Of a stretch of DNA of 64,000 bases, positions 17,741-57,820 are shown one piece after another. This DNA is from Rhizophagus irregularis (lineage: Eukaryota > Glomeromycota > Glomeromycetes > Glomerales > Glomeraceae), in contig NC_089435.1 in NCBI RefSeq assembly GCF_026210795.1, forward strand, positions 992,001 to 1,056,000, read 5' to 3'. A program made the position numbers and the translations under genes. The notes under the pieces were generated by a model. It did not search any database. It was not told where the DNA came from and saw nothing but the letters and a program-made list of their open reading frames with translations. Every line of letters begins with the position of its first letter. The first letter of the stretch is position 1.

Positions 17741-20602
17741 TCAATCAATTTCATTTTGTTCATTTAATAATGTAAGAATCTTTTTTGCATCATCATTTCC
17801 ACCTTCGGCTGCTTCTTTATATAAATTAAAAGCCCTTTCCTTATCAACATTAACTATAATTCCATTATCATAATAATAACCGAGCTTACATTTTCCATTT
17901 ACACATCCTTCTTCGGCTGCCTGTTTATAATAACCAAATGCTCTAATCTCATTCCTATTTACACCTTTTCCTAATTCATAAATTTCTCCTAATTTATATA
18001 AAGCAAGTTTATCATTTTCTGCTGATCTTTTATACCAATAATTAACCATATTTAAATCATTTACTAGTTTTTCATTATCTTCATACATTAATTTAAGATA
18101 TTCCATTGCATTATTTTTTCCTTTTACAATCGCCTCATCATATAATATCATTCCTTTTTCTTTATCAACTTTTGTTCCAATTCCATTAACATAACAATAT
18201 CCAAGATGAAATTTTGCATTTACATATCCTTTTTCAGCTGATTTCTTATAATATTCAAATGCTTTATTTTTATCTTTTACTGTACCTATTCCTAATTCAT
18301 GACATATACCCATGTTATCACACGTAACTTCATTTTCATTTGTTGCCGCTTTTTGGAACCAATAATTGGCTTTTTCAAAATCTTTTTCAGTTCCTTCTCC
18401 CATAATATATAAAAATCCAAGATTATTTTGTGCATCTATATATCCTTTTTCAGCTGCTCTTTTATATAACTCAAAAGCTTTTATTTCATCTTTTTCAACT
18501 CCTATACCAAATTTATAATGATATCCTAAATTATGTAATGCTAATTCACACCCATTTTCTGCTGCTTCTCTATACCAATAAATAGCTTGTACTAAATCTT
18601 TTTCTGTACCTTCTCCATTTTCATATAAATATCCGATTTTACTTTTTGCAACATTAAGTCCTCTTTCAGCTGCAATTTTATACAATTCAAACGACTTATC
18701 CTTATTAATTTCAGTTCCAATACCTAAATAATAACAATTTCCAAGTTCAAACTGTGCATTTAAGAATCCTTTATCAGACGCCATTTCATAATATTCAAAC
18801 GCTTTTTTTTCATTCTTTTCAACACCAAACCCGTTGTAATAACAGACACCTAAATTATATTGTGCTGCTATAACTCCATTCTCAGCTGCTTTATTATGCC
18901 AGTAAACAGCTTTTTCTGGATCTATTTCTGTTCCTACTCCACTTTGATATAAAATTCCAAGATTACTTTGCCCAATATTATGTCCTCTTTCTGCTGTAAT
19001 TTTATATAATTCAAATGCTTTTGTCTTATCAACTTCAGTTCCAAGTCCTTTATCATAACAATATCCAAGTTCAAATTGAGCTTCTAAATGTCCTTGTTTA
19101 GCTGATTTTTTAAAATATTCAAATGATTTAACATCATCTCTTTTAACACTTATACCATGTTTATAGTAATATGCTAAATTATATTGTGCTATTTTACATC
19201 CATTTTCTGCTGCTTTATTGTACCAATAAATAGCTTTTGCTAAATCTAGTTTTATATATTTACCATTTTTATATAAAGTTCCAAGAGCACTTTGCGCTGC
19301 AGTCTGTCCCTTTTCAGAAGCAATTGTATATAATTTAAATGCTTTAATTAAATTAGTATCAACTCCAATTCCATTTTCATAACAATATCCAAGTTCATAT
19401 TGAGAATCTAAATATCCTTGATTAGCTGATTTTTTAAAATATTCAAATGATTTTTTTTCATTTTCCTCATTTTTATAATGAATACCTAATTTATATTGTG
19501 ATAATTTATTTCCATTTTCAGCTGATTTTTCATACCAATAAATAGATTTTTCTAAATCTTTTTCTATATTTTGATAATAATCACCTAATATATTTTGCGC
19601 TAATGAATATCCTCCTTCAGCAGATTTAAAATACCATTCAAAAGATTCCTTATCATCTTTTTTTATTCCAATTCCATTTTGATAACAAATACCAAGATTA
19701 TATTGTGCATGTATATTCCCTTCATTAGCAGATTTAAAATACCATTCAAATGCTTTCTTTTCATCTTTTATTATTCCAATCCCATTTTGATAACAATAAC
19801 CTAAATTATTTTGTGCATCAATATTTCCTCCTTTTGCTGATTTTAAATAATATTCAAATGATTTAAATAAATCCTTCTTTTTTCCTATACCATATTGATA
19901 ACAATGACCTAAATTATTTAATTCTATTAATTCTTTCTTTTTATCATAATCTATTTGATTTTCATTATTATTATTAGAACAATATTTATTTTTTGATTCA
20001 AAATATTCTTCCATAATATTTATTTCATCCTTACATAAATTTATTTCTAATCCATTAAAATTTTCAAATTGATTATTATATGACATTGTATGTTTCTTTT
20101 CTTCTAAATTTTTAAATTCTTTTATAATCAAATCTCTTTTATTTAAAATAATATCTTTATAATAATAAAATGATAATAAATATTTTGATATAATAATATT
20201 AAGTAATTGATAAATAGAAATTAAATTATTATTAATTTCATCATCATCATCATTATTATTATCATCATCATCATTTTTTTTAGTATATTTATTAATTGAT
20301 AATAAATATAATTTTAAAGATTTATCATCATCATCAAAAAGATTTGATAAATCATTATCATTTATTAAATCATAATCATAAAAAAATCCTATTAAACCTG
20401 AAAACCAATTTTCATTTTCTTCATGATCTTCCATTAATTTTAAAATTTTTTCATGATTTAATTCATTATTAATTAAATAATCTTGTACCCAATCAATTAA
20501 AATATTTTCAAAATTATTATAATTATCTATTTTTATTATTTGACGATAAAATCCTTTTAAAAATTTTTTTAATAAATTATTATTCTCATTATCTAAATTC
20601 AT
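17741..20602 (-). CDS. Sel1-repeat (SLR/TPR-like) protein, 953 aa
   Basis: One uninterrupted exon on the minus strand. Residues 1 to about 220 are rich in Asn and Asp (a run of DDDDNNNDDDDE near residue 113) and predicted mostly disordered or helical. From about residue 228 to the end there are roughly 20 Sel1-like repeats of 36 residues. Examples are AQNNLGYCYQNGIG, then KKAFEWYFKSANEGN, recurring with the pattern A-x3-LG-x-Y-x2-G-x-G-x4-KA-x3-Y-x2-AA-x2-G. Such solenoids are protein-protein scaffolds; members elsewhere work in cell-wall synthesis control and ER-associated degradation. In Rhizophagus, Sel1 proteins form a large family and some are fused to kinases, but no kinase domain is present here. 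No signal peptide or membrane segment is visible. Confidence 0.93.
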   Translation of the reverse strand: MNLDNENNNLLKKFLKGFYRQIIKIDNYNNFENILIDWVQDYLINNELNHEKILKLMEDHEENENWFSGLIGFFYDYDLINDNDLSNLFDDDDKSLKLYLLSINKYTKKNDDDDNNNDDDDEINNNLISIYQLLNIIISKYLLSFYYYKDIILNKRDLIIKEFKNLEEKKHTMSYNNQFENFNGLEINLCKDEINIMEEYFESKNKYCSNNNNENQIDYDKKKELIELNNLGHCYQYGIGKKKDLFKSFEYYLKSAKGGNIDAQNNLGYCYQNGIGIIKDEKKAFEWYFKSANEGNIHAQYNLGICYQNGIGIKKDDKESFEWYFKSAEGGYSLAQNILGDYYQNIEKDLEKSIYWYEKSAENGNKLSQYKLGIHYKNEENEKKSFEYFKKSANQGYLDSQYELGYCYENGIGVDTNLIKAFKLYTIASEKGQTAAQSALGTLYKNGKYIKLDLAKAIYWYNKAAENGCKIAQYNLAYYYKHGISVKRDDVKSFEYFKKSAKQGHLEAQFELGYCYDKGLGTEVDKTKAFELYKITAERGHNIGQSNLGILYQSGVGTEIDPEKAVYWHNKAAENGVIAAQYNLGVCYYNGFGVEKNEKKAFEYYEMASDKGFLNAQFELGNCYYLGIGTEINKDKSFELYKIAAERGLNVAKSKIGYLYENGEGTEKDLVQAIYWYREAAENGCELALHNLGYHYKFGIGVEKDEIKAFELYKRAAEKGYIDAQNNLGFLYIMGEGTEKDFEKANYWFQKAATNENEVTCDNMGICHELGIGTVKDKNKAFEYYKKSAEKGYVNAKFHLGYCYVNGIGTKVDKEKGMILYDEAIVKGKNNAMEYLKLMYEDNEKLVNDLNMVNYWYKRSAENDKLALYKLGEIYELGKGVNRNEIRAFGYYKQAAEEGCVNGKCKLGYYYDNGIIVNVDKERAFNLYKEAAEGGNDDAKKILTLLNEQNEID

Positions 20603-26125: not shown

Positions 26126-27756
26126 ATGCCACCAAAAAAACAGGAATAGTATCAAGCAAAAAGGAGATCAGCTTCCAACTACTACTGTATCAACCCGTGG
26201 CCGCAAGAAGAAAGAAGTGTGTCTGTCACTGCTTTATCAACAAAGGTTAATACTACTACACTGAAACATAGTTACAAGAAAAAAGAGCAAGATCATGTAA
26301 TTAATATACTATTGAGAGATGATGACATCGTACCATTACTAGAAGGTGATTATGAACAACCTGCAAATGTATCACTCGTACCATTACTAGAAGGTGATTA
26401 TGAACAACAAATGTATCACTCGTACCATTACTAGAAGGTGATTATGAACAACCTGCAAATGTATTACTCGTACCATTACTAGAAGGTGATTATGAACAAC
26501 CTGCAAATGTATCACTCATACCATTACTAGAAGGTGATTATGAACAACCTGCAAATGTATCACTCGTACCATTACTAGAAGATGATGATGATCAAGGTAA
26601 ATGGTACTCTGATAAATTTTGCGATTTTTGGTACACCTATTAATTATAATTTTTCCTTAGCTTCAAATCATGCATCAAATAACAATGATGAAGATATTAC
26701 AGCCTTTAATTCTTTTAACTACATTAAGAAATGATATTGATTTGTCTCCAAATCATCCATTAAGTGATCATGATGATATTGAGGTTTCAAACATTATTAG
26801 ACATAAAGAGATCACAAAACGAAGCTTAAATCCATTAAGGCTTCCACTGTTAGTTCCAGCATCAAATAATTCAAACATCAATTCAAATAATTTTTCACCA
26901 TTATTATCAACACCAAATAATTCAAACATCAATCATAATAATGTATCAAGTGGTGCCAGCCAATTTGATAGCATTTTTGGGTTAAATGATGGAGCTATCG
27001 ACTCAGTTCATGGTAGTGTACAAATCCTAACATTTTGAAACAGGCTAATAGTATGTATTCATTAATGCAAGTACTAATGGCGGATGGGAGACGATTTACA
27101 ATGCCTATTTCTTCAAACTCATCAACCTCAGTGCATCATCAAGATGACAAAGTAAGTTTTACATAAATTATTAAAATATTTGTCATAGGTGATGGCTCAT
27201 TGTGACTTCTTAGAGGAACTAAAATGTCTGTTCCTATGAGTTCAAAATCCTCCAAGAAGTGCGCTTGAAAATTTGGCACTCCAGATTATTAACTGTGACT
27301 TAAATTCGAATGAAGGAATCAATTGGCTTAAATAGCCAGTAAGTACTTTTGGTGACTTTCGTAACAAGTTGGTCAATAGTATTCAAATTATTCAAAGAAA
27401 ACAATGCACGGTTAGTGGTTTTCACTTTTACTCATGTAAAATTACGATTAACATTTTTACTAATTAATTTTCTTGAGACTACAGGGAATCAATTAATCCG
27501 CAAATGGAAGAGATTGCTGCATTCGTAGATAAGTCTGTAACGGTCCACGTGCTAAACCGATGGTTAAATGCCACAAAAATGGACGAATTACGAGCCAAAA
27601 TTCAATGGTGAATTTGCATAGATTTGTTATAAGAGCTTTTGCCATAAATTATTATCAAGAGACCCAGAAAAAATGAAAGCTTTAAACAATATAACGCGCA
27701 ATATTTCTGTGCCATCACGAAATGGTAAAAATTACGCCAGCAATTTGCAACTTTAA
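26126..27756 (+). pseudogene. Decayed lineage-specific repeat-family gene
   Basis: Starts MPPKK at ATG 26126, after a poly-T/poly-A tract. A frameshifted basic stretch follows (TTTVSTRGRKKKE), then six copies of a 16-residue repeat. An intron 26597-26660 (GTAAAT...CCTTAG) then joins to an Asn/Ser-rich exon (VPASNNSNINSNNFSPLLS). Later pieces include SMYSLMQVLMADGRRFTMPI near 27060 and FVDKSVTVHVLNRWLNATKM near 27520. It ends VPSRNGKNYASNLQL before a stop. Several frameshifts and stops show decay. I do not recognise the family; the layout suggests a dispersed multi-copy fungal gene or transposon ORF. Confidence 0.5.
26330..26596 (+). repeat. 48-bp coding minisatellite (VPLLEGDYEQPANVSL)
   Basis: Six head-to-tail copies of a 48-bp unit encode VPLLEGDYEQPANVSL. 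The second copy lacks 4 bases (CCTG), shifting the frame; the last copy turns into an acidic run (EDDDDQ) at a splice donor. The unit length is a multiple of three, so the repeat grew while the gene was coding. Confidence 0.85.
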
Positions 27757-28148
27757 TATTTATTTATCATCGCTATTTTATATTAGTATATTTTATTATT
27801 TTTATAAGTTTTATATAACAAATATTCCTTATTATGATATAACGGATAATACGCTTTTTACAATTATTAGTATTAGAAAAGTATTAAAAATTTTACTAAT
27901 ATATAATTGGCTTTTTATTAAAATGTATTTTATACTTAATAAATAAATGTATCAAAAAAAAAAATAAATGAAGAAATCGGTAAATAATATATAATGCATC
28001 GAAAAAGTATATTAGATTAATTGTTTCAGCTAATTTTCGATGATATTTCCTAGCTATTTAAGACCATGTCACAACCATGTCACAACTTCGACAAGACTAC
28101 GAAAAAGCCTGTCATCAATGGTTCCACAAGATAGTCCGACACCATCTT
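27757..28148. other. AT-rich intergenic
   Basis: AT-rich sequence and the flank of the following element. The 74-codon frame at 27722-27946 is AT-rich and hydrophobic by composition only. Confidence 0.4.
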
Positions 28149-28389
28149 CCCCAGTATCGCCAGAAAATTTTTTCACCCCCACGTGACCCTAAATAATTTG
28201 TCACTTGTGTCACATCCCTCCACTTTCTCATTTTTTATAAGTATTCTGGGGACTTAGATTTTTTTCGGTGTCTAAAATCCTATTCGTCACACGTTATTCG
28301 ACACATGGTTAATTTCTTAATTCCAGCCAAATCTTATAATGCCGGCCAAAGTCACGTGGGGGTGAAAAAATTTTCTGGCGATACTGGGG
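28149..28389. mobile_element. 241-bp MITE with perfect 39-bp inverted ends
   Basis: The left arm 28149-28187 (CCCCAGTATCGCCAGAAAAT...) and right arm 28351-28389 are exact reverse complements, each containing CACGTG. The interior is about 160 bp with no coding capacity. The 11-mer GTCCGACACCA lies on both flanks (28134-28144 and 28395-28405), though not directly at the tips. Confidence 0.85.
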
Positions 28390-28617
28390 TAGATGTCCGA
28401 CACCACGATAGTCACGTGTCTGATACTAGATCGTTGTGATTTATTGGCGATCACTTATGGGTTTCTGCAATGTAATCACCACTTTTGCATATAATACATT
28501 TTGCATAAATATTGTTACCATATTTATTCATACTAATAAAGGCGTTTAATAATAAAAAAAAAAGAAAAAAAGATATTTACTTTATCTTTTTCAATTAGGG
28601 AGAATTTTGATATAGCA

Positions 28618-31600
28618 ATGGGTGGTAAAGGTAAAGCATACAGTATAACATGAATAATAATATAAATTAGATTTATCAAAATTATTAAAACAAATTTGTA
28701 ATGTAATAAAACTAGTTTTGTGTGATACCAAAGAACATATAATATATGAAACAAAATTGAAATATTAAGATTTTTATTTATTAAATAAACTTAATTGGTA
28801 ATAATCAAATATAATTAAACCAAATTTGCAATTTAACAAACTAGTTTCCAGCAATATCAAAGAATTTGAAGAAAGTGGTACTGAAGAATTTGAAAGTAGT
28901 AGTATTGAGAAATTTGAAGGAAGTAACACCAAGGAATCAAAAGGTATATCAAACAAGCTGAAATATTAAGTTTTATTTATAAACAATTCAAATACTACTA
29001 GACTAACTATATTATATAAATATTATATTAAATACTTAGCTTGTAAGTTAATATAATTGAATAAAGATAAATTACTCATTAATTTTATTGTATTTCATAT
29101 AACTAAATAATTTATTAATGATTAATAATACTGTAGTTAGTAAGTTATCGGTTATTTAAATCTTTAGTCCTCTACTTTATTTATTTTACATAACATTCAA
29201 ATAACTAAATTCTTTGTCTATATAACTATTTAATAATTGATTATATTACAGATGGTAAGCTATAGTAATATATATATTATATTTATTTGTTTAATATTTT
29301 ACATAATTCAACTAATTATATTCTTAATTTAATTAACTAGATTGTAAGTAATATATATGATTTACAGTAAATACTTTTATATTATCTTTATATCTAACAA
29401 ATTAATAATTAATACTATAGGGTGTAAGTTATATGATGTCTATATTTATATTATTTATATAATTTAACTAATTTCTTTATTTGAAAAATTATTAAATAAT
29501 ATAGTTCGTAAGTTATTTATTTAATTCTATTATTACTTATTATTATAACATTTACATATAATTTAAACTAACTAATTTCTTTATTTAAAAAATTATTTTG
29601 TAATTATTTTAGTTGGTAAGTTATAAGTTATTTACTTAATTCTATTATTACTTATTGGTTATAATATTTACATATAATTTAAACTAAATAATTTATTTAT
29701 TTTAAAAATTATTTTATAGATAGTAAGTTAATTATTTAATTCTATTATTACTTATTGTTATAATATTTACATATAATTTAAACTAACTAATGTCTTTATT
29801 TAAAAAATTATTAAATAATATAGTTTGTAAGTTATTTATTTAATTATATTATTACTTTTGTTATAATATTTACATATAATTTAAACTAACTAATTAATAT
29901 AGTTTGTAAGTTATTTATTTAATTCTATTATTACTTATTGTTATAATATTTACATATAATTTAAACTAACTAATTTCTTTATTTTAAAAATTATTAAATA
30001 ATATAGGGAGTAAGTTAATTATTTAATTCTATTATTACTTATTGCTATAATATTTACATATAATTTAAACTAACTAATTTCTTTATTTAAAAAATTATTA
30101 AATAATATAGAGAGTAAGTTATTTATTTAATTCTATTATTACCTATTGTTATAATATTTACATATAATTTTAACTAACTAATTTCTTTATTTAAAAAATT
30201 ATTAAATAATATAGTTTGTAAGTTATTTATTTAATTCTATTATTACTTTTGTTATAATATTTACATATAATTTAAACTAACTAATTTCTTTTTTTAAAAA
30301 ATTATTAAATAATATAGCGAGTAAGTTATTTATTTAATTCTATTATTACTTATTGTTATAATATTTACATACAATTTAAACTAACTAATTTCTTTATTTA
30401 AAAAATTATTAAATAATATAGGGAGTAAGTTAATTATTTAATTCTATTATTACTTATTGTTATAATACTTACATATAATTTAAACTAACTAATTTCTTCA
30501 TTTAATTTATTTTAGTGGGTAAGTTATAAGTTATTTATTTAGTTCTATTATTACTTATTGGTTATAATATTTACATATAATTTAAACTAAATAATTTATT
30601 TATTTTAAAAATTATTTTATAGATAGTAAGTTATATATTTAATTCTATTATTACTTATTGTTATAATATTTACATATAATTTAAACTAACTAATTTCTTC
30701 ATTTAAAAAATTATTTTGTAATTTATTTTAGTTGGTAAGTTATAAGTTATTTATTTAATTCTATTATTACTTTTGTTATAATATTTACATATAATTTAAA
30801 CTAACTAATTTCTTTTTTTAAAAATTATTAAATAATAAAGCGAGTAAGTTATTATTTAATTCTATTATCGCTTATTGATATAATATTTACATATAATTTT
30901 AACTAACTAATTTCTTTATTTAAAAAATTATTAATAATATAGGGGGTAAGTTATTTATTTAATTCTATTATTACTTATTGTTATAATATTTACATATAAT
31001 TTAAACTAACTAATTTATTTATTTAAAAAATTATTAAATAATATAGAGAGTAAGTTATTTATTTAATTCTACTATTACTTATTGTTATAATATTTACATA
31101 TAATTTAAACTAACTAATTTTTTCATTTAAAAAATTATTTTGTAATTTATTTTAGTTGGTAAGTTATAAGTTATTTATTTAATTCTATTATTACTTTTGT
31201 TATAATATTTACATATAATTTAAACTAACTAATTTCTTTTTTTAAAAATTATTAAATAATATAGCGAGTAAGTTATTTATTTAATTCTATTATTACTTAT
31301 TGTTATAATATTTACATATAATTTAAACTAACTAATTTCTTTATTTAAAAAATTATTTTGTAATTTACTTTAGTGGGTAAGTTATAAGTTATTTATTTAG
31401 TTCTATTATTACTTATTGGTTATAATATTTACATATAATTTAAACTAAATAATTTATTTATTTTAAAATTATTTTATAGATAGTAAGTTATTTATTTAAT
31501 TCTATTATTACTTATTGTTATAATATTTACATATAATTTAAACTAACTAATTTCTTTATTTAAAAAAATATTTTGTAATTTATTTTAGTTGGTAAGTTAT

Positions 31601-33232
31601 GATAACCCAGAAAATTCTTCTATCACGTGACATGTTTATATTTGGGAAATTGGTTCCTTTTTTGGCTTTTTTGGTGTAATGATATTTTGCATTAATAAGT
31701 TATTTATTTAATTCTACTATTACTTATTGTTATAATATTTACATATAATTTAAACTAACTAATTTCTTCATTTAAAAAATTATTAAATAATACAGTTTGT
31801 AAGTTATTTATTTAATTCTATTATTACTTTTGTTATAATATTTACATATAATTTAAACTAACTAATTTCTTTTTTTAAAAATTATTAAATAACATAGCGA
31901 GTAAGTTATTTATTTAATTCTATTATTACTTTTGTTATAATATTTACATATAATTTAAACTAACTAATTTCTTTATTTAAAAAATTATTTTGTAATTTAT
32001 TTTAGTTGGTAAGTTATAAGTTATTTATTTAATTCTATTATTACTTTTGTTATAATATTTACATATAATTTAAACTAACTAATTTCTTTATTTAAAAATT
32101 ATTAAATAACATAGCGAGTAAGTTTAATATTTATTTAATTCTATTATTACTTATTGTTATAATATTTACATATAATTTAAACTAACTAATTTTTTTATTT
32201 AAAAATTATTAAATTATTAAATAATATAGTGTGTAAGTTATTTATTTAATTCTATTATTACTTATTGTTATAATATTTACATATAATTTAAACTAACTAA
32301 TTTCTTTATTTAAAAATTATTTTATAGATGGTAAGGTTTTTATTTAATTCTATTATTACTTATTGTTATAATATTTACATATAATTTAAACTAACTAATT
32401 TCTTTATTTAAAAAATTATTAAAATTAATATTAGGGGGTAAGTTATTTAATTCTATTATTACTTATTGTTATAATATTTACATATAATTTAAACTAACTA
32501 ATTTTTTTATTTTAAAAATTATTTTGTTATTTATTTTAGTTGGTAAGTTATAAGTTATTTATTAATTCTATTATTAACTTATTGTTATAATATTTACATA
32601 TAATTTAAACTAACTAATTTCTTTATTTATTTAATAGATCGTAAGTTATAAGTTATTTATTTAATTCTATTATTACTTATTGTTATAATGTTTACATATA
32701 ATTTAAACTAACTAATTTCTTTATTTATTTAATAGATCGTAAGTTATAAGTTATTTATTTAATTCTATTATTACTTATTGTTATAATATTTACATATAAT
32801 TTAAACTAACTAATTTCTTTATTTAAAAATTATTTTACAGATGGTAAGTTTTTTATTTAATTCTATTATTATTATTGTTATAACATTTAATATAATTTAA
32901 ACTAACTAATTTCTTTATTTAAAAAATTATTTTTGATCTAGCTTGTAAGTATCTCTATCATTATATATTTTATATAGTATTTATTTGTTAACTGAATTCT
33001 TTCATTTGAAAAATATCTGTTACTTTAGTTGGTAAGTTGTAAAATGTAAATTATAGGTTATTATATGTATTTATCCAAAAATTAAGACTTATATTATATT
33101 ACATTAAATTCCTAATTAAATTTTAGAGTAAGTAATAATTTGTTTTGTGTATATTATAATACAGTCTATAATATCTATAATATAATTTTAATTATTTAAA
33201 TTTATAGATTTGGGAAAAGTAGAAATACAATT
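28618..33232 (+). CDS. Possible microexon-coded N-terminal extension of the kinase gene (model)
   Basis: Candidate exons in order are: 28618-28630 (ATG GGT GGT AAA G, followed by GTAAAG); 28845-28943 (99 nt, entering and leaving in phase 1, coding VSSNIKEFEESGTEEFESSS and more acidic sequence); then 39 exons of 3 nt spread over 29040-33031. A 1-nt exon at 33127 follows, and then 33208 onward, which is open through FGKSRNTI into the Met at 33233. In phase 1 the triplets make 39 codons with no stop, including MDIAREIA followed by MDIVSIA. The last microexon supplies G, the 1-nt exon A, and 33208 a further A, forming GAA in frame with the kinase. All splice sites are GT-AG. Nothing shows that these exons are really joined in RNA; the simpler alternative is that the gene starts at 33233 and this region is satellite DNA. 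Confidence 0.35.
29040..33127 (+). repeat. Tandem array of about 40 intron-like units with 3-nt spacers
   Basis: Units of about 76-112 bp read GTAAGTTATTTATTTAATTC, then TTATAATATTTACATATAAT, then TTAAACTAACTAATTTC (an ACTAAC branch-point-like motif), then T-rich and A-rich sequence ending ATATAG or TTTTAG. I located 39 consecutive junctions in which an AG (TAG 35 or more times, otherwise CAG or AAG) is followed by exactly three bases and then GTAAG. The triplets are TTG (7), CGA (5), TTT (4), ATA and ATG (3 each), GGA, AGA, TGG, GGG, ATC, CTT (2 each), and TTA, ATT, GGT, TTC, TGT (1 each). The fortieth gap, at 33127, is one base. The first five units are more divergent than the rest, and the unit starting at 31592 carries an insertion. 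Confidence 0.93.
31601..31696. mobile_element. 96-bp insertion inside one array unit
   Basis: The unit that begins GTAAGTTAT at 31592 is interrupted by about 96 bp (GATAACCCAGAAAATTCTTC, then TATCACGTGACATG, ending GCATTAAT) before continuing AAGTTATTTATTT. Related units read GTAAGTTATAAGTTATTTATTT without the insertion, so the limits are well defined. CCAGAAAATT and CACGTGAC echo the ends of the 28149 element, suggesting a relative. It only lengthens the putative intron. Confidence 0.6.
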
Positions 33233-34451
33233 ATGGATGATTTTATCCTTGAAAAAAGATTAAGATGGATTCCTTATAACAAATTTAAAAATATTGAATA
33301 TTTTAGTGAAGGAGGATTTGGTACTATATACAAAGCTATTTGGTTAAAGAATAATGGAGATGAAGAAGTAATTCTTAAATGTCACAAGAATTTAAATGAA
33401 AATTTAAATGAATTTTTAAAAGAAGTATGATAGTATATTATTTCCATTTTTTAATTTAAATTAAAATTAATAAATTATTATTATTTTTTATAGTGGAAAT
33501 ATCATACAAATGTTTTAAGTTCGAATGATATTATATTTTTTTATGGATTTACAGAAGATCCAAATACTTCAAAATATATGGTAGTAATGGAATATGCAAA
33601 TAAAGGTAATTTAAGAGAAAATTTAACAAGAATAGTCAAAAATAATTGGAATCAAAAATTATATATGTTGTACGAAATTATTTCTGGACTTAGTGAAATA
33701 CATAAAAAAAATCTTATTCATTGTGATTTTCATGATGGTAATATTTTAAATCATAATCATGAGGATAAGGATAAAATTTATGTGTGTGATTTAGGATTAT
33801 GCCAACCTGTAAAATCATTTTTGAAAAAGTATGATGTTTATGGTGTAATGCCATTTATGGCTCCAGAAGTTTTAAGAGGTAAATCTTATACTCCAGCTAG
33901 TGATATATATAGTTTTTCTATGATTATGTGGGAACTTACATCCGGGGTACCACCATTTAATAATAGAGCACATGATATGCAACTTAGTTTTAGTATTTGT
34001 AAAGGTGAACGTCCTGAAATTATTGAAAATACTCCACAATGTTATGTAGATTTAATGAAAGAATGTTGGAATGAAGATTTATCAAAAAGACCATCTTCTA
34101 AAGAAGTATTAAAAATTATTGAAAAATGGATTTTCTGTCCTCCTTATGATGAAATTAATGAAGAATTAAAAAGCAACATTATGGAATTTATAAATGCACC
34201 AATTAGGCAGTATAACAATCTTGTTATTGAATCACATCCACAAGCATGCTATACAAGTCGCTTACTTGATTTTACTAGTAAAAAATTGAATGAAATGATA
34301 GCAAGTGAAGGTTTGAGTGAATATATGGTTAATTCGAAGCCATTAGGTATGTAATATAGTATATAAAGAAAATTAATCTTGCAAATTATTTGTGTGAAAT
34401 TAATTTTATTTAATATTTAATTATTTAGATATTAAAACAGATGAAAATTAA
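33233..34451 (+). CDS. Protein kinase, TKL-like, all catalytic residues present
   Basis: Exons 33233-33424, 33494-34346 and 34429-34451 with GT-AG introns of 69 and 82 nt; 355 aa if translation starts at this ATG. The order of motifs is complete. The N-lobe lead-in is RLRWIPYNKFKNIEYF, the glycine loop GGFG (residues 27-30), and the anchoring lysine K49 (VILK). The catalytic loop is HCDFHDGN with Asp142 and Asn147, the metal-binding motif is DLG (Asp163), and APE is at 187-189. The C-lobe has DIYSFSMIMWELTSGVPPF and WNEDLSKRPS. The tail SRLLDFTSKKLNE, spliced to a final SKPLDIKTDEN, is usual for Rhizophagus kinases; using the first stop after 34346 instead gives a tail two residues longer than the donor site (GM). 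The likely role is signalling by Ser/Thr/Tyr phosphorylation; the substrate is unknown. The frame is open upstream to 33208, so the true start may lie further 5'. Confidence 0.92.
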
Positions 34452-41802: not shown

Positions 41803-43309
41803 ATGTCTTGTTCAAAAATATTTTCAGGAGATTTACCTGAGATAACATATTATATTATAAAAAATTTTCAAAATGATTTTTCAACTTTATATTCATGTAT
41901 TCTAGTTAACAGATTATGGTGTCGTTTAGCAATTCCATTATTATGGGAAAATCCTTTTTCAATTACTAATAGACGGGTCAATAATATTGGAGACCATAAA
42001 TTTATTGAAATATACTTATATAATTTAAATAGTGATTTAAAATCGAAATTAAATGAATATAAAATTAATGATAATTTATTACCTTCAAACACACTTTTCA
42101 ATTATCCTAATTTTATAAAATATTTGAATACATCGAATATTATTCAATCTATTAAAAAGTGGACTGCTGTAAAAGTTATTAAAGATTTAGATTCAGAATC
42201 TGAATTTAGAAGATTAATTCAAACATCCCTATTTAAAGTGTTTATTGAAAATGAAGTAAAATTACATACCCTTGAAATTGAAGTCTTCTCTAGTTCAAAT
42301 TATAATTCCTATAATTATGATATATTGGAATTAATTTTACAAAATACAAATTTCATTCATAATATTATAAATTTAAAACCTTATATTTTTTCTGAAGAAG
42401 ATAAACTAATGGAGAAATCTTGTATTACAAATAATTTATTTACATCAAAATCTTAAAAAGTTAACATTGGGTTGTGATGATTTTTCCTTATATCAATCAT
42501 TATTATTATCTAAAGATTATAATTGTTCAAATACTTTAAATACTATCATATTATACCACATTAGAAGTATAAACAATTTAAATAAAATATTTGAACAATT
42601 AAATGTTATGGAATCCATTCATATCATTTATTGTCGATTTTTAAACAGTAGTTTTATTCAACAAATTATTAATTTGTCTAAACCTTTTAAATTAAAATCT
42701 TTATTTACATGTGGGGATTTAAAAAGTGAACTATTAATATTATTATTGCAAAAATCTGGTGATTATTTAGAGAATTTTAGGGATGACCTTAGTTGTTGTG
42801 ATCAAAAATTATCAGAATTAATTATAAAATATTGTAAAAATCTCAAATTTCTTGATATTTTTACCACCACAAATCAGATTATTTACCAAATATTCAATTT
42901 GATTGAGAATATTAATTATCTTACTATTAATTGTGGAAAATATATTGGCAGCTCAATTTTATTACAAAATTTAGGACAAAACCTTCCTTCTAGATTAGAA
43001 TATTTAAATTTAATTCTTCACATTAAAGCAAGTGATTTTGAAATATTCCTAAAAAATTCCCAAGATACTTTTATTAAGAAATTGTTAATTTCAAATTCAA
43101 TGCTAAATGGTGATGATATTTTACCTTATATAAAAGAATATATTATGAAGGAGAAAAGGGTCAGGTATTTGACTTTTGAGGATATTGCAAATAATGAATT
43201 AATTAATTTAGATGATGAAGTGGAGGAATTTAAGTTACATAATATTATAGTCCAGAATTATAGTTATCTGTGTATCAACGAATATCAATTTATACAGGAA
43301 CTTTATTAA
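41803..43309 (+). pseudogene. F-box/LRR gene broken by one frameshift
   Basis: ATG 41803 begins MSCSKIFSGDLPEITYYI, then SCILVNRLWCRLAIPLLWEN, an F-box. The frame stops at 42456, and the rest of the protein continues from about 42430 to 43309 in another frame (LGCDDFSLYQSLLLSKDYNC onward). Against the intact paralogue at 44708-46318 the break is a loss of about 14 bases near 42435, between AAATAAT and TTACATCAA. The second half keeps the leucine-rich pattern to its natural end. With only one lesion the loss is recent. An unspliced rescue is not obvious because no GT-AG pair spans it. Confidence 0.8.
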
Positions 43310-43824
43310 TTATTATAATTACGATTAAAAATGAGATTTAGAGGGTTATAAATCTACACATAATATAAAATTTACATTTTAAAGAACTATGACAGTTATT
43401 ACATTATTTTTGTTCAATACGAAACAGTTGTTTGTTTCTTTTAATATGATACCTAAATTCACTTATAAATAATCATTTATATTCTTACTCTTCCATAGAA
43501 ATTCATACTTGAATCTCAAAGAGTTAATAATAATGTGGCTAAATTACGTTACAAATCATCATAAATTCAGTGTCCTAATCATGTGAATTACGTGCGAGTT
43601 CCATGCAAATTCCATTTCCAAATTGTGCATTTTCCGTGCCCCTTCAACGGATTATTATGATACGCTATTTCTAAGGAAAAAAAATCGTATAAAAACATTA
43701 TTAAAAACATATCGTTTTTTTACAGGGCTGAAGGACGATTTGGATTGGATTAATGTTTTTTTATTTTTATTTCTTTATTTCTCAAAGTACCGTATACATC
43801 CGAAATTAAGCACCTATTTTGACC

Positions 43825-43870
43825 GTAATTCTGGCCAGAAGATTATGAAGTATTCCAAGTAATTAAAAAA
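43825..43870 (+). pseudogene. Fragment of a TLDc C-terminus
   Basis: Encodes PEDYEVFQVIKK and a stop, the same final residues as the BTB-TLDc genes at 59.6 and 62.5 kb (VEDYEVFQVIKK). Upstream sequence is not recognisably TLDc. A leftover of a lost gene copy. Confidence 0.6.
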
Positions 43871-44707
43871 TAAAAAAAAAATCAGTATTTATGCTTTTTG
43901 TTAATTAATTAATTAAACTTTTTACAAATAAAGTTTTAACTATGTTGAAGAAAACTAATTAAATATAAAATTGAGATACTTTTTTTTATTTTTTTTTATT
44001 TTTTTATTTTTTCATAATGTATAATTCAAGGTAGCTTATTTCAAAACTAAAATTATACCAAAATTTAAAAACTGATAAAAGTTATCCAGAGACGAAAAAA
44101 AGTGGACAATATGATTTATAACTTATATATATAAAGCCTAAATTCAGTTGCTTATTTTAGGCTTTATTATGAAAATTGCATGAAAATTTTAAACATTCAA
44201 ATTTATAGAGTATCATGTGATTGCAATTAAGATTAACTAGTTTACATTCTTTTTAGGAAAGGTTAGTTATTTTATCCGTTTTTTCAAAGCTTTATAAGGA
44301 ATCTGAAAAATAATTTTTTTAAAAAAATTGATGAATATTAAAATCGTACAGACATACAGTTTCAGAAGGCAACAAGATCCTAAAAATTATTATAGGCGAA
44401 AATTTTCATCATATATTTCATTTATTTGTAAAGAGCAAAAGATACATAATAAAGTGGGCATTTGATTTATTACATTTTGTAAAAAACAATTATTATACGT
44501 AATTTAGTAAATTTTCTTTCGCTATGTTCCAATTTTTATGTAACATAGGATATAAATTACATGTCAAAATTACTTTATCACAAAATATTAAATGTATAAA
44601 AATTCATGAATTACTTTATTATAAAATAATAAATTTATAAGCAATTATATTTAATACTACACTATTCCTATCTGATATTTTAAAATTACCACTCTAGTAC
44701 TAAATAA
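43871..44707. other. AT-rich intergenic between convergent F-box genes
   Basis: No gene recognised; T-rich simple sequence at 43978-44015. Confidence 0.45.
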
Positions 44708-46318
44708 TTAATAATTCCGAGTAAATTCAGGAAAACTTACCATTAAGCTTTTATGACTTTGCACTTTAATATCATACAACTTAAATTCCTCCACTTCATC
44801 TTTCAATGAAACCAATTCCTTATAGTCATAGTTTCCATAATCTGATGTACTTTCAAAGGAATCTATAATAGCCAAATATTTTACTCTTTTCTTTTTCATA
44901 ATATATTTTTTTATACAAGATAAAATATCTTGACCTTCTAAATTTTTGATCAACAATTTCTTAATAAAAGTATCTTGAGAATTTTTCAAGAATACTTCAA
45001 AATCACTCAATTTAATGTGAAGACACAAATCTAAATATTCTAATTTAAAAGGAAGAATTTGTCCTAAATTTTGTAATACAATTGAATTATATTCAATATA
45101 ATTTTTCCAATCTGTTATCTTAATTGTAAGATAATTAAGACTTTGTTTCAAATTTTCAATCAGATTGAATAATAAATAAATAATCCGATTTTCAAATTTT
45201 TCAAATTTACTTAAATTAAGTAATTTAATATTTTTACAATATTTTATAATTGATTCAAATAATTGTTCATTTTGAATTACAAATTCACTCCCAAAATTCT
45301 CTAAATATCCACCACATTTTTGTAATAATAATTGAAATGATGATTCATCAATTATCTCACTTATAATTAAAGATTTTAATTTAAATGGTCTATTTAAATT
45401 AGTAATTTGTTGAATAAAGCTAGTATTTAAGGGATGACAATAAATGAGATGAACAGATTCTAAAACTTTTAATTGATCAAATATTTTATCTAAATTGATT
45501 ATACGTTTAAACTTAACTCCATATAATGTGATAGTATTTAAAGTGTTTGAACAATTATAATCTTTTGTTAATAATAATGACTGATATAAAAAAAAGTCAT
45601 TAGCCTTTAAAGAAATTACTTTAAGATTTTGATGTAAATTAATTAATTTTAATATATTATTTTTAATTATCATATTTTTATTAGGACCACTAGAAAAACT
45701 ATTACAAATATAAAGGTTTAAATTTTTAACATTGTGAATAAAATTTGGATTTTGTAAAATTAATAATAAAATATCATTCAAATAATAATCCAAATTATAA
45801 AAGATCTCAATTTCAAAAGTATTTAAATTTGTCTCATTATTAATAAATAGTTTAAATAATGACATTTGAATTAATCTTTCAAAATCATCATTCTCAATTA
45901 AACATCTTTTTTCAGGTTTTAAAGTTTTAATAATATTTTTATACCACTCATGAGTAGAAAATTTAATCTCAAATGTATTCAAATATTTTATAAAACTAGG
46001 ATAATTGAAAAGTGTATTTGAAGGAAATAAATTATCCTCAATTCCATATTCATTTAATTTTGTATTTAAATCTTCATTTAAATTATGTAAATAAATTTCA
46101 ATAAAGTTATATTTTTTTGTTTCTGAACTACAAAAAAAATATTTCACATTCGGAGGATTTGAAAATGGATTTTCCCATAATAATGGAATTGTTAAACGAC
46201 ACCATAATCTGTTAACTAAAATACATGAATATAAAGTTGAAAAATCATTTTTAAAATACTTTAAAATATCATATGTTAATTCTGGTAATTCTCCCGAGAA
46301 TATTTTTGAACAAGACAT
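44708..46318 (-). CDS. F-box/LRR protein, 536 aa
   Basis: One exon on the minus strand from ATG 46318 (MSCSKIFSGELPELTYDILK). The N-terminal 50 residues form an F-box (LYSCILVNRLWCRLTIPLLW). The remainder is a leucine/asparagine-rich repeat region (for instance LHQNLKVISLKA, FDQLKVLESVHLIYC, FKLKSLIIS). The expected role is the substrate-recognition subunit of an SCF ubiquitin ligase: the F-box binds Skp1 and the repeats bind the target. It is the only intact member of the local group; the plus-strand copy at 41803 is frameshifted and the copy at 50668 is decayed. The last residues are uncertain: AATGGTAAGT at 44741 could be a donor with an acceptor ending 41 bases on, giving a product ending KSLMY instead of the longer tail. 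Confidence 0.9.
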   Translation of the reverse strand: MSCSKIFSGELPELTYDILKYFKNDFSTLYSCILVNRLWCRLTIPLLWENPFSNPPNVKYFFCSSETKKYNFIEIYLHNLNEDLNTKLNEYGIEDNLFPSNTLFNYPSFIKYLNTFEIKFSTHEWYKNIIKTLKPEKRCLIENDDFERLIQMSLFKLFINNETNLNTFEIEIFYNLDYYLNDILLLILQNPNFIHNVKNLNLYICNSFSSGPNKNMIIKNNILKLINLHQNLKVISLKANDFFLYQSLLLTKDYNCSNTLNTITLYGVKFKRIINLDKIFDQLKVLESVHLIYCHPLNTSFIQQITNLNRPFKLKSLIISEIIDESSFQLLLQKCGGYLENFGSEFVIQNEQLFESIIKYCKNIKLLNLSKFEKFENRIIYLLFNLIENLKQSLNYLTIKITDWKNYIEYNSIVLQNLGQILPFKLEYLDLCLHIKLSDFEVFLKNSQDTFIKKLLIKNLEGQDILSCIKKYIMKKKRVKYLAIIDSFESTSDYGNYDYKELVSLKDEVEEFKLYDIKVQSHKSLMVSFPEFTRNY

Positions 46319-46824
46319 AGTGGAGAGCAAAAGAAAAAGTATTTGTAAAACTATTGTGTCAGCCGCCGGATAAATTTAATTAATTTTTAGAACGGCAAAT
46401 ACATAAAAAGGTAACAATCATGAAAAAAATGTGTAGTGCTGATCTCTTGTTACCTATTTATATATTTTCCCGATAATAGTCGTACAAGTCGTACAATTCA
46501 TGTCAATTAATAGTAACAATTGTGACGTAAAAAAATGCTGATCCGCATGTGATCGATAGAATTTCTATAAGTATATAGCTATGCCGTTCAATCCGTTCAT
46601 CAATTTAAATAATAATTGTTTGTTGTCAGAGCAAGATTTTTTTTTTAAAAAAAAAGGTTCTCTTTGTATACTGATATGAAAATTTTTTACAATCAATTTG
46701 TTATTTAATTATTATAGTATTTATTGAGTTCATCTAATAATTCAGTAAGAAGATCAATATCTTGTCGTAACATTCTATGATTTATACTAATTTATTTATT
46801 TTATATATTTGGTTCAAATATTAT

Positions 46825-54642: not shown

Positions 54643-55507
54643 AGCTCTGAAACCTGACTCAACAGATCAGGTGACCTGACGAGTTGACCCAAAATATTCA
54701 GGTCAGGTCATCAAATTCATGACCTGATACGGGTCGGGTCAGTGCTGGTCAGTACCCGACCCGACCCATTGACCTGACATATATTTGGGTCAAATAAATT
54801 AAATAACGCCAAAACTTATAATGATTCCAGCGTTTTTACATGTAAAATCAAAAGAAAAATGCCAGAACTAATGATTCTGGCGTTTTTACATGTAAAATCA
54901 AAAAAAAATGCCGAAACTATCAGTTTTGGCATTTTTACATGTAAAATCAAAAGAAAAACACCAGAACTAATGATTCTGGCACTTTTACATGTAAAATCAA
55001 AAAAAAATGCTGAAACTATCAGTTTCGGCATTTTTACATGTAAAATCAAAAGGAAAAATGCCGGAACTAATGATTCTGGCATTTTTACATGTAAAATTGA
55101 AAAAAAAATGCCGAAACTATCAGTTTCGGCATTTTTACATGTAAAATCAAAAAGGAAAAATGCTGGAACTAATGATTCTGGTGTTTTTACATGTAAAATT
55201 GAAAAATAAATGCCAAAACTATCAGTTTCGGCATTTTTACATGTAAAATCAAAAGGAAAAATGCTGAAACAAATAGTTTTGGCATTTTATATAAAAACAA
55301 AAAGTAAAAAACGTTACAAAACATTTTTTTACAATATTTAATAATAAAACTTTGGGTAACCCAAGTTACCTGAAGTGACCTGAATACTTTTAGGTCAAAT
55401 GGGTCGGGTCAGATCAGAACAGTTTACCCGACCCGACCTGACCTGAAAAAAAATTTCGGTTCGGGTTAACCAGGTAACCTGACCTGACCTGGCCCATTCA
55501 GAGCTCT
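54643..55507. mobile_element. Nested foldback element with GACCT ends and hairpin core
   Basis: The left tip AGAGCTCTGAAACCTGACTC and right tip (reverse) AGAGCTCTGAATGGGCCAGG are inverted, each followed by irregular GACCT/GACCC pentamer runs (to 54790 and from 55355). The middle is the hairpin satellite described separately. It lies within the 53780-55683 element, so it inserted later. Confidence 0.65.
54810..55320. repeat. Hairpin satellite, about 60-bp units
   Basis: About nine units in which GCCAGAACTAATGATTCTGGC or GCCGAAACTATCAGTTTCGGC (each a short hairpin) alternate, separated by GTTTTTACATGTAAAATCAAA. ACATGT is itself palindromic, so each unit can form two stems. The long frames on both strands here come from the repeat and are not genes. 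Confidence 0.85.
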
Positions 55508-55685: not shown

Positions 55686-57203
55686 TAAAGCTCTGAACAG
55701 TTCGGGCTAAACTGGGGAACCGATCCGAAACTGGCTCAAAATTCGGTTCAGTTCAGTTCGGGTATTAGAACTGAAAAACTGGCGGTTCGGTTCGGTTTAA
55801 TCTGATTTTTATAAAAATGCAAAAAATCGAATAGCCGGCCATCTGGTGATCATATAAAGTCGACCAATATATTATTGGATTTCTCTCGACGAGATGCGTC
55901 GAATGGTGGTAAGATCATGTCTCTAGCATCGATAGATCACACGTTAATCCACGCTAAATGATTTATAAATAATTGGAATTAGAAGGCTATCTATCGGTGC
56001 TAGAGACATGATCTTAGCACCATTCGACGCGTCTCAGTGAGACGAATCCAATGAATATAAATTAGTTCGTGTACGACCACTGGATGGCGAATAATATCAA
56101 GTTTCGCATTTTTTTAAAATTTTCGAGCGTTAAAAATTAAAAATTCCGATACATGAATTTATTCGTCGTCCAATGGTCGTAAAATATGAATTAGGACTCA
56201 TTAGATTCGTCTCGATGAGACGAGTCGAATGGTGGTAAGATCACGTCTCTAGCATCGACAAATAGCTTGCTAATGCCATTTTTTATAAATTATTTAGCGT
56301 GAATTAACATACGATCTATCAATAATAGAGACATGTTCTCACCACCATTCGACTCGTCTCATCGAGACGAATCCAATGAGTCCTAATTCATATTTGTAGG
56401 ACCATTGGACGACGAATAAATTCATGTATCGGAATTTTTAATTTTTAACGCTCGAAAATTTAAAAAAAATGCGAAACTTGATATTATTCGCCATCTAGTG
56501 GTCATACACGAACAAATTTATATTCATTGGATTCATCTCACTTAGACGCGTCGAATGGTGCTAAGATCATGTCTCTAGCACCGATAGATAGCTTGCTAAT
56601 TCCAATTATTGATAAATCATTTAGCGTAGGTTAACATGTGATCTATCGATGCTATAGACATGATCCTACCACCATTCGACTCGTCTCATCGAGACGAATC
56701 TAATGAGTCCTAATTCATATTTGTACGACCATTGGACGACGAATAAATTCATGTATCGGAATTTTTAATTTTAACGCTCGAAAATTTTAAAAAAATGCGA
56801 AACTTGATATTATTCGCCATCCAGTGGTCGTACGCGAACTAATTTATATTCATTGGATTCGTCTCACTGAGACGCGTCGAATGGTGCTAAGATCATGTCT
56901 CTAGCACCGATAGATAGCCTTCTAATTCCAATTATTTATAAATCATTTAGCGTAGGTTAACATGTGATCTATCGATGCTAAAGACATGATTTTACCACCA
57001 TTCGACGCGTCTCGTCGAGACGAATCCAATGATATATGGCTCGACTTTACACGATCACTAGATGGCCGGCTATTCGATTTTTCGCATTTTTATAAAAATC
57101 AGATTAAACCGAACCGAACCGCCGGTTTTTCGGTTTGGTTCTTACGGATTTCGGCTCTAATCCGAACCGTCTATAATCCGGACCAAACCGACCCGTTTGA
57201 TGC
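55686..57203. mobile_element. 1.5-kb compound foldback element with CGGTT ends
   Basis: Outer arms: 55686-55880 (with CGGTTCGGTTCGGTTTAATC, then GAATAGCCGGCCATCT) pair in reverse with 57040-57203. Inside are several inverted and direct copies of a module containing TCGAATGGTGCTAAGATCAT, then GTCTCTAGCACCGATAGAT, plus small palindromes such as CGTCTCACTGAGACG. The segment from about 56340-56530 recurs directly at about 56670-56850. The whole region can fold into nested stems. No coding frame of interest. Confidence 0.75.
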
Positions 57204-57220
57204 TTTACCTATGACATTTT

Positions 57221-57820
57221 CCCTAAAATCAATATAAAAAAAGTGAATTCTGATACTGCAATTCACTTTTTATATATAAAATTGATATAAAAAAGTGAAT
57301 TCTGATACCGCAATTCACTTTTTATATCTAAAATCAATATAAAAAAGTGAATTCTGATACCGCAATTCACTTTTTATATCTAAAATCAATATAAACAAGT
57401 GAATTCCGATACCGCAATTCACTTTTTATATCTAAAATCGATATAAAAAAGTGAATTCCGATACCGCAATTCACTTTTTATATCTAAAATTGATATAAAA
57501 AAGTGAATTCCGATACCGCAATTCACTTTTTATATCTAAAATTGATATAAAAAAGTGAATTCCGATACCGCAATTCACTTTTTATATTTAAAATCGATAT
57601 AAAAAAGTGAATTCTAATACCGCAATTCACTTTTATATCTAAAATCAATATAAAAAAGTGAATTCTGATACCGCAATTCACTTTTTATATCTAAAATCAA
57701 TATAAAAAAGTGAATTCTAATACCGCAATTCATTTTTTATATCTAAAATCAATATAAAAAAGTGAATTCTGATACCGCAATTCACTTTCTATATATAAAA
57801 TTGATATAAAAAAGTGAAAA
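57221..57820. repeat. About 52-bp hairpin satellite, 11 copies
   Basis: Units of the form AAAAAGTGAATTCTGATACC, then GCAATTCACTTTTTATATCT, then AAAATCAATAT. Within each unit AAAAAGTGAATT and AATTCACTTTTT pair, leaving a 10-base loop. Copies differ at few sites, so the array is young. Confidence 0.9.

Follow-up and report, generated by a model that had tools for sequence, protein, structure and literature searches.

The stretch of DNA analysed here, referred to below as the window, comprises 64,000 nucleotides of the genome of the mycorrhizal fungus Rhizophagus irregularis (contig NC_089435.1; C7:992001-1056000). The window is very rich in A+T; a row of 39 consecutive AG-NNN-GTAAG junctions, each of which would define an exon of three nucleotides, separates an ATG exon at 28618 from a protein kinase. 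The pattern AGNNNGTAAG has 46 matches in the window, 39 of them on the plus strand within 29038-33036, and in 100 dinucleotide shuffles of the window it matched 3.1 times on average and 8 times at most. When AG-to-GTAAG spacings from 0 to 12 were checked over 28618-33300, the spacing was three in 39 cases, and the only other spacing found was one, in three cases (two in AGAGAGTAAG and one at 33127). The pattern count, the spacing check and the shuffles confirm the claim of an earlier sequence-only reading that 39 junctions hold exactly three bases each, and the intron-like units of 76-112 nt, together with a single one of 204 nt, are as that reading described them. The last unit (33032-33207) is also exceptional in length, with 176 nt, and is divided by a one-base exon into 95 and 80 nt. 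The G+C content of the triplets is 0.376 against 0.08-0.21 in the intervening units, most of which share a homogeneous core of about 80 nt with the motif ACTAAC. Next to the junctions, a few classes of sequence can be told apart, and the outermost units diverge from the others; Tandem Repeats Finder (TRF) reports the array as a tandem repeat of 103-104 bp with about 30 copies.

Joining exon 1, exon 2, the 39 triplets, the single A and the kinase exons (Table 1) gives one open reading frame (ORF) of 1323 nt in 45 exons, which would encode 440 amino acids. The joined model contains GAATCAAAAGCTTTTAATGATTGG... through ...CATGCTTTTGAATTTGGGAAA, and the stretch of its product that spans the array reads FNDWFLDIFWKISRMDIAR.... 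A kinase domain was found by Pfam (PF07714, E = 6e-43, residues 108-356); the domain (PF07714/PF00069) is complete, with the catalytic-loop Asp and a DFG-like Asp. About 40 of the 440 residues come from the 39 symmetric short exons and the kinase is encoded by ordinary exons. The N-terminus (MGGK/MDQC) does not look obviously like a signal peptide. Skipping the whole array leaves the frame open (401 amino acids). When the one-base exon is left out, the model contains 30 stops, the first at residue 95. The coordinates and the phase-1 end that the sequence-only reading gave for the 99-nt exon 2 are right; its statement that the triplets run in frame into the kinase holds only with the one-nucleotide exon, which it did not mention. 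An additional symmetric phase-1 exon of 27 nt, of which the window keeps a remnant, is visible by eye with its donor in four other loci described below (L009, L016, L024 and L030).

Searches covered the whole genome, 146.7 Mb in 32 contigs. A 45-base segment of the intron core is found at 1568 places (up to 3 mismatches; reversed control, 0), a pattern for the 3' edge of the array at 81 places (up to 2 mismatches; controls, 3 and 1), and the junction class AATATAG-NNN-GTAAGTTATTTATTTAATTC at 1459 places (1 mismatch allowed; control, 0). The first kinase exon has at least 151 matches (150 of 3792 candidates scored). Our test set of 36 loci, out of these matches and from this one genome, consisted of the window, 11 loci found by core match, 16 by exact match to the 3' edge and 8 taken from the kinase-exon list. 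The eight kinase-chosen loci have 61-90% identity to the query exon, their stretches end at 2.9 kb, and seven of them have no edge match (L039 has one). All 36 loci have an array, and behind it a kinase exon of one kind, although the presence of the array in the 11 and 16 core- and edge-chosen loci is not independent of the choice.

The 36 arrays contain 1035 triplets, 964 of them followed by GTAAG; in the 28 fullest loci there are 9-66 triplets each, 862 in all, with GTAAG after 819. The units between them look like GT-AG introns also in their interior: of 948 array introns of up to 132 nt, 778 have CTAAY at a distance of 12-60 nt upstream of the acceptor, and 463 contain ACTAAC. Before counting, we dropped the last two junctions of L012 and the last AG-NNN-GTAAG of L013 (0.8-2.6 kb off the array), the first junction of L023 (1580 bp away) and one junction of L026 outside the cluster. 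Five further stretches with junction matches and no listed kinase nearby (L044-L048) stand outside all counts; L045 has an array and a kinase, and L046 and L048 each have a single isolated AG-NNN-GTAAG junction of the array class. Introners or introns carried by transposons would be expected as copies in unrelated genes, flanked by target-site duplications; all 36 test arrays lie before the one kinase family, as does that of L045, and in L044 and L047 an array stands with no kinase exon in the available sequence. By extrapolation from the mean array and the number of kinase matches, this genome may have several thousand 3-nt exons. The family, the need for a one-nucleotide exon and the variability of the triplets between loci go beyond the sequence-only reading.

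Some arrays have irregular introns. L042 has a block of GC-AG donors with seven ATG^GCAAG units and one TTT^GCAAG unit, and L011 has a similar block of eight TTG or TTA^GCAAG units. Insertions of tens to hundreds of bases are present within array introns of L010, L015, L016, L017, L019, L020, L026 and L027, with the splice sites kept, and some of them look transposon-like by eye. In the window, the insertion in the longest array intron, which is exceeded in size by insertions in other arrays, contains CAGAAAATTCTTCTATCACGTGAC and resembles, by eye, the ends of an inverted-repeat element upstream of exon 1 (Table 1).

The reading phase of the array can be predicted independently of the array itself, from the lengths of the exons before it. 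In all 24 loci where the pattern found an ATG exon, its length is 13, 19 or 22 nt, that is, it ends in phase 1; of the 12 loci without a match, 11 have at most 601 upstream bases available, and in L015 no ATG exon was found within 2 kb. Exon 2, recognized by pattern in 12 loci, has 42-132 nt and always a multiple of three; it was not seen before the array in L011, L013, L014 and others. All array introns would thus be in phase 1, and each codon would be split: one triplet would supply its first base, and the following triplet the other two.

When the triplets are read in this way, stop codons are nearly absent. Only two phase-1 stops occur in the 1035 triplets of the 36 arrays, against a mean of 35.3 and a minimum of 21 in 3000 shuffles of the order within arrays. 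The first 12 loci, in which the effect was first noticed, have 0 against 11.0 expected, the next 16 loci have 2 against 15.5, and the eight kinase-chosen loci have 0 against 8.7. Before the units without GTAAG were added, the first 12 loci had one phase-1 stop among 396 codons, formed in L011 over a TTG^GCAAG unit that had not been parsed; with GTAAG units and introns of ordinary length only, the 36 arrays have 1 against 31.4 expected. Shuffling the third base of the triplets within arrays agrees with shuffling the order, giving 2 against 35.9 for phase 1, 3 against 3.5 for phase 0 and 148 against 144 for phase 2; the phase-0 and phase-2 readings were rejected, with stops near expectation in both.

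The avoidance is limited to immediate neighbours. A triplet ending in T is followed at lag 1 by one starting with AG, GA or AA in 2 cases against 38.8 expected (p = 5e-19), whereas the numbers are 37 against 34.9 at lag 2 and 27-37 against 31-34 at lags 3-7, without clear depletion (lowest p = 0.04, at lag 3, with 21 against 29.0 when repeated pairs are counted once). Neighbours read in reverse order give 43 against 36.5. Among the trinucleotides formed at the junctions of whole arrays, TAG is the most depleted (0 against 25.7). After trimming of the first five and last two triplets and removal of arrays of up to 12, the three stops are the three most depleted among the trinucleotides expected at least four times (TAG 0 against 17.1, TGA 0 against 5.7, TAA 0 against 4.5), but we do not lean on this count because the trimming also drops both known stops.

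The end of the array fits the same phase. The array ends in phase 1 and the kinase exon needs phase 2, and between them every one of the 36 loci has a one-base exon (an A in 34 loci, a T in one and a G in one; donor GTAAGT in 35 and GTGAGT in one). Note that 16 of these loci were picked by a pattern that contains the one-base exon, and the other 20 were not. The last array codon in phase 1 is Phe in all 36 loci. An argument for phase 0 from the fixed edges, where CTC/CTT and TTG/TTA look synonymous, was rejected; the change TTG/TCG at the 3' edge leaves the residue as it is in phase 1 only. In 31 of the 36 kinase first exons there is no Met before the glycine loop, so that translation must start upstream in those loci. 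The evolutionary constraint seen in the triplets indicates that the mRNA retains them in the order in which they stand in the genome and that they are translated in phase 1.

The triplets are hypervariable in otherwise homogeneous surroundings. In 398 nearest junction pairs, which were picked for at most 3 differences over 80 flanking bases, the first, second and third triplet positions (T1, T2 and T3) differ at rates of 0.33, 0.20 and 0.43, compared with 0.017 per flank site. Within one class of 14 units in the window, the 20-nt flanks differ at about 5% of sites per pair and the triplet positions at 78, 44 and 63%. Where the 15 + 15 flanking bases are identical, the triplets differ in 12,805 of 15,369 pairs (795 of 1314 within one array), and in control windows of the introns, conditioned alike, 6-23% of pairs differ. 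The first kinase exons of L015 and L016 are 98.2% identical, yet their arrays are unlike, with 12 of 42 triplets in common order. Positive selection was not accepted from codon-position rates alone; higher rates at T3 and T1 than at T2 agree with diversifying selection if the phase is 1 and with ordinary constraint if it is 0.

Within 10 of the 36 arrays, blocks of 4-7 triplets recur, some of which consist of one triplet throughout; this is the pattern expected from duplication of units. The ends of the arrays are conserved, and an early start of the kind [LFIM][DNE][DN]W is present in 24 of the 36 by a loose pattern, some stretches ending early. Without the ends, the phase-1 composition is 13.9% R, 9.3% D, 7.4% N, 7.3% W, 7.3% Y, 7.2% G and 6.0% F; part of it follows from which triplets are common.

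Table 1. Features of the window (positions in the window; exons are those of the predicted gene model).
Feature	Position	Strand	Remarks
Exon 1, ATGGGTGGTAAAG	28618-28630	+	ends in phase 1; donor gtaaag
Remnant of an additional symmetric phase-1 exon of 27 nt (TTTTGTGTGATACCAAAGAAC...)	28716-28739	+	donor lost here; by eye
Exon 2, 99 nt	28845-28943	+	phase 1 to phase 1; acidic repeat product (VSSNIKEFEESGTEEFESSSIEKFEGSNTKESK)
Array of 39 three-nucleotide exons	29040-33031	+	first CTT 29040-29042, last TTG 33029-33031; each AG^NNN^GTAAG
Array product, phase-1 reading	29040-33031	+	(A)FNDWFLDIFWKISRMDIAREIAMDIVSIAMYGVDHHAF
Longest array intron, 204 nt	31592-31795	+	lengthened by an insertion of 96 nt (31601-31696) that leaves the splice sites intact
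One-nucleotide exon A, TTTTAG^A^GTAAGT	33127	+	changes the phase from 1 to 2 and brings the array into frame with the kinase
Kinase first exon (FGKSRNTIMDDFILEKRLRWIPYNKFKNIEYFSEGGFG...)	33208-33424	+	homologous exon in 36 loci
Kinase second exon	33494-34346	+	HCDFHDGN and DLG motifs; Pfam PF07714 match
Last coding exon	34429-34451	+	ends in TAA; window gene model
Inverted repeat, MITE-like (miniature inverted-repeat transposable element)	28143-28395		45-nt arms, 98% complementary, 163 nt between; about 220 nt upstream of exon 1
Large Sel1-like repeat protein	17741-20602	-	ORF; presumed from its sequence
F-box-like proteins	41803-46330		ORFs; presumed from their sequence
Pair of closely similar BTB/TLDc-like proteins	58566-59648 and 61066-62481	+	ORFs; presumed from their sequence
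Tandem repeat, 48 bp	26328-26609		
Tandem repeat, 50 bp	54819-55288		
Tandem repeat, 326 bp	55868-57032		
Tandem repeat, 52 bp	57223-57818		11.5 copies, 94% alike

Taken together, we consider it highly probable that these loci form a kinase family with a hypervariable segment encoded one residue per exon, the array being coding sequence. The suggestion of the sequence-only reading that the array encodes an N-terminal extension of the kinase in this manner is strongly supported by the avoidance of phase-1 stops between neighbours only, by the uniform phase of the ATG exons, by the constant one-base exon and by the scarcity of an early Met in the kinase exons.

Several observations weigh against this reading. 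Seventy-one of the 1035 triplets (27 of 435 in the first 12 loci and 16 of 427 in the next 16) rely on weaker donors and were taken by a permissive pattern, and gaps of more than 135 nt hold ten candidates for broken units or units of another length (four of 6 nt, three of 4, two of 2 and one of 0). L044 (29 triplets) and L047 (16) have an array, and no kinase exon was found in the available stretch. Two arrays contain a phase-1 stop, L021 at CGT|AAC and L024 at TTT|AAC, the latter across a damaged unit. The kinase first exon of L027 also carries a stop (one of 36), so some members of the family are damaged; when slices of a fixed 217 nt were taken from the kinase exon, 4 of 36 had a stop, but in three of these (L014, L015 and L016) it lies beyond the exon donor. 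In whole arrays TGA (0 against 6.4) and TAA (2 against 6.7) are depleted but do not rank second and third, and the sense codons GTT (43 against 69.3), ACT (4 against 14.5), CAT and GGG deviate equally or more by z, so that the order of neighbouring triplets is non-random for other reasons too. The P values treat related units as independent, a problem that the order shuffles and the separate sets of loci lessen and do not remove. Moreover, spliced retrocopies were not found in the genome, neither by the joined 3' junction (40 nt; 0 places with up to 3 mismatches) nor by the joined 5' junction (27 nt; 0 places with up to 3 mismatches), and several public protein models, discussed below, read the triplets in phase 0.

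Other explanations were weighed against the same data. The junctions could be recursive splice points by which a long non-coding intron is removed stepwise, with the triplets untranslated. The tandem AG-NNN-GTAAG indeed resembles ratchet points, and recursive splicing is expected of small exons (PMC4674806). However, it is hard to see why T|AG, T|GA and T|AA should be avoided, and this only from one triplet to the next, if the triplets were not translated, and the frame-repairing one-base exon is kept in all 36 loci. Splicing itself is an unlikely cause of the missing T|AG, since C|AG would serve equally well as an acceptor and occurs about as often as expected (16 against 15.1 in 28 arrays). 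No translated bases should be left by such non-coding splicing, and the phase-1 avoidance of stops between neighbours argues that they are; we regard this explanation as very improbable. What probably stands of the recursive splice points proposed in the sequence-only reading is the mechanical part, namely that 3-nt exons are joined stepwise; the triplets would not be discarded with a 4-kb intron. Even less credence is due to a minisatellite whose splice-like motifs were frozen by recent duplication, in front of a kinase with its own start. It would account for the tandem repeat reported by TRF, and the kinase exon of the window happens to carry a Met at 33233, but most kinase first exons lack one before the glycine loop, and AG-3-GTAAG is kept both at the array ends and in divergent arrays in which the intron sequence has changed. 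With the triplets differing far more than their flanks, and with the avoidance of stops, this is the most improbable of the explanations that we considered.

The coding alternatives concern the phase and the choice of triplets. In phase 0, each triplet would be a whole codon and the kinase would be reached by way of a 5-nt exon, AGTAA, with the donor GTAATA. The differences at T1, T2 and T3 look like those of ordinary codon positions, and the public models P0001, P0006, P0023, P0046, P0066 and P0093 have strings rich in G, L, I, M and V that end with SK before FGKS or a variant of it. Nevertheless, stops are avoided in phase 1 and not in phase 0, a phase shift would be needed after the ATG exon and exon 2, both of which lead into phase 1, and the 5-nt exon has a weak donor that is absent from the GTGTTA variants, which leaves very little probability for phase 0, slightly less than for the non-coding recursive splicing. 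An array that generates alternative products, with different subsets of triplets in each transcript and always in frame, is unlikely too, though it is the least improbable of the four. The array exons are symmetric and keep the frame when skipped, as does a skip of the whole array. Stops at lag 2 occur at the random rate, however, which argues that the skipping of single exons is not a common, selected outcome and not the main use of the array, while rare or untranslated skips would be compatible with it.

In the reading that we prefer, a row of coding exons of one codon each, every NNN would be a constitutive 3-nt exon between short introns of about 100 nt, which have strong donors (mostly GTAAGT), an AG acceptor and, in most cases, a CTAAY branch-like motif. 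The triplets would be joined in order, after which the one-nucleotide exon would reset the frame for the kinase, and the product of the window gene would consist of an acidic N-terminus, the hypervariable segment and the kinase. A 3-nt exon is too small for two spliceosomes, so the introns should be defined singly and removed in separate, probably recursive, steps; stepwise removal of introns was proposed for a one-base exon in Arabidopsis (PMC4674806).

As for the origin of the variability, the near-identical introns may well make each codon a recombination cassette of about 100 bp, so that unequal exchange or conversion could add, drop, copy and reshuffle single codons with the frame kept; we think this somewhat more probable than a different origin. 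With slightly greater assurance, we suppose that selection for residue diversity keeps the triplets different while the introns homogenise. Intron cores identical across contigs together with diverse triplets suggest that recombination homogenises the introns and that selection keeps or creates the diversity of the codons; a purely neutral array would homogenise its triplets along with the flanks. We propose only tentatively that each kinase is given an individual character by its hypervariable segment, which would serve as a surface for recognition or docking. Equally tentative is the overall picture of a codon-cassette diversification in Rhizophagus, in which perhaps more than 100 kinases carry segments rich in R, D, W, Y, N and F that are edited residue by residue, in frame, through recombination of introns, and that act as private recognition or docking surfaces, for example in self/non-self discrimination at hyphal fusion or in partner recognition.

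If the triplets are used in this way, dozens of consecutive 3-nt exons and a 1-nt exon are spliced faithfully in many genes, which would put the limits of intron definition to a test far beyond the published isolated cases. The exon-intron structure would then turn single codons into units of recombination, a route to hypervariability unlike repeat domains, V(D)J joining or alternative cassettes. Many current gene models in a large kinase family of an important plant symbiont would then probably be mistaken at their N-termini.

The proteins closest to the predicted product are kinase-like proteins of R. irregularis, many of them from DAOM 181602 (= DAOM 197198), among the 120 listed of 1160 matches; homologues from R. 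diaphanus and R. clarus stand lower among the same 120. The models that read the triplets in phase 0 do so by way of the putative 5-nt exon, whereas in P0064 and P0071, also among the 120 listed, the stretches after exon 2 fit phase 1. Other listed models seem to splice over the array or to run into an intron. We rejected the public proteins as evidence of splicing, as the models disagree and some read through introns; the array-like ones are presumably products of gene finders and not transcript evidence. The N-termini of P0001, P0006, P0023, P0046, P0064, P0066, P0071 and P0093 look like misread triplet arrays. Among them, P0023, P0046 and P0071 are R. diaphanus records, which suggests that arrays exist in R. 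diaphanus too.

A full-text literature search, which covered few subscription papers and preprints, found no description of consecutive one-codon exons or of such a structure in mycorrhizal fungi. The component features are already known, and the use of rows of one-codon exons as a hypervariable coding device is new as far as could be found. The micro-exon genes (MEG) of Schistosoma form families in which very short exons, most of them a multiple of three in length, follow one another in large number, and they are hard to annotate automatically (PMC10526429). According to the same source, their exons have 6-81 bp (3-81 bp in the abstract), mostly 15 bp, with 10-20 per gene and introns of 100 to almost 5000 bp, and the products are secreted. 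The arrays resemble them in the many consecutive very short exons in multiples of three, and differ in that nearly all of their exons have 3 nt, with as many as 66 in one gene, that the introns, near-copies of each other, are about 100 nt long, and that the product is a kinase; moreover, short symmetric exons do not make up most of the coding sequence of the window gene. The bicycle genes of aphids are likewise a large family with unusually many small exons, encoding putative salivary effectors, and megacycle has more than 100 microexons (PMC9168663), but the available text of that paper describes no array of single-codon exons for them.

Single-nucleotide exons that keep the frame, as the one-base exon would here, are known in APC11 and VPS55 of plants and CYP621A of Fusarium (PMC4674806, PMC8831610, PMC12940212). 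Those cases are isolated, in single or few genes, whereas here the one-base exon closes the array in all 36 loci. Isolated 3-nt microexons are competent for splicing, as in human RPS24, where three consecutive microexons have 3, 18 and 22 bp (PMC12686416), and in Drosophila homothorax (PMC7392893). In both accounts there is one 3-nt exon per gene, which is alternatively spliced, and not rows of them as here. Acceptor and donor nearly touch in the arrays as they do at the ratchet points of long introns in flies, and stepwise removal is expected of both. Ratchet points are not known to leave bases in the mRNA, whereas three bases per point would be kept and translated here. Homogenised repeat cassettes with hypervariable positions that are reshuffled by recombination are also a feature of the fungal NLR-like HET repeats and the lamprey VLR, in which each cassette is a protein repeat that is tens of residues long. 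The kinase arrays likewise consist of homogenised cassettes with hypervariable positions, but here the cassette would be one codon and its intron.

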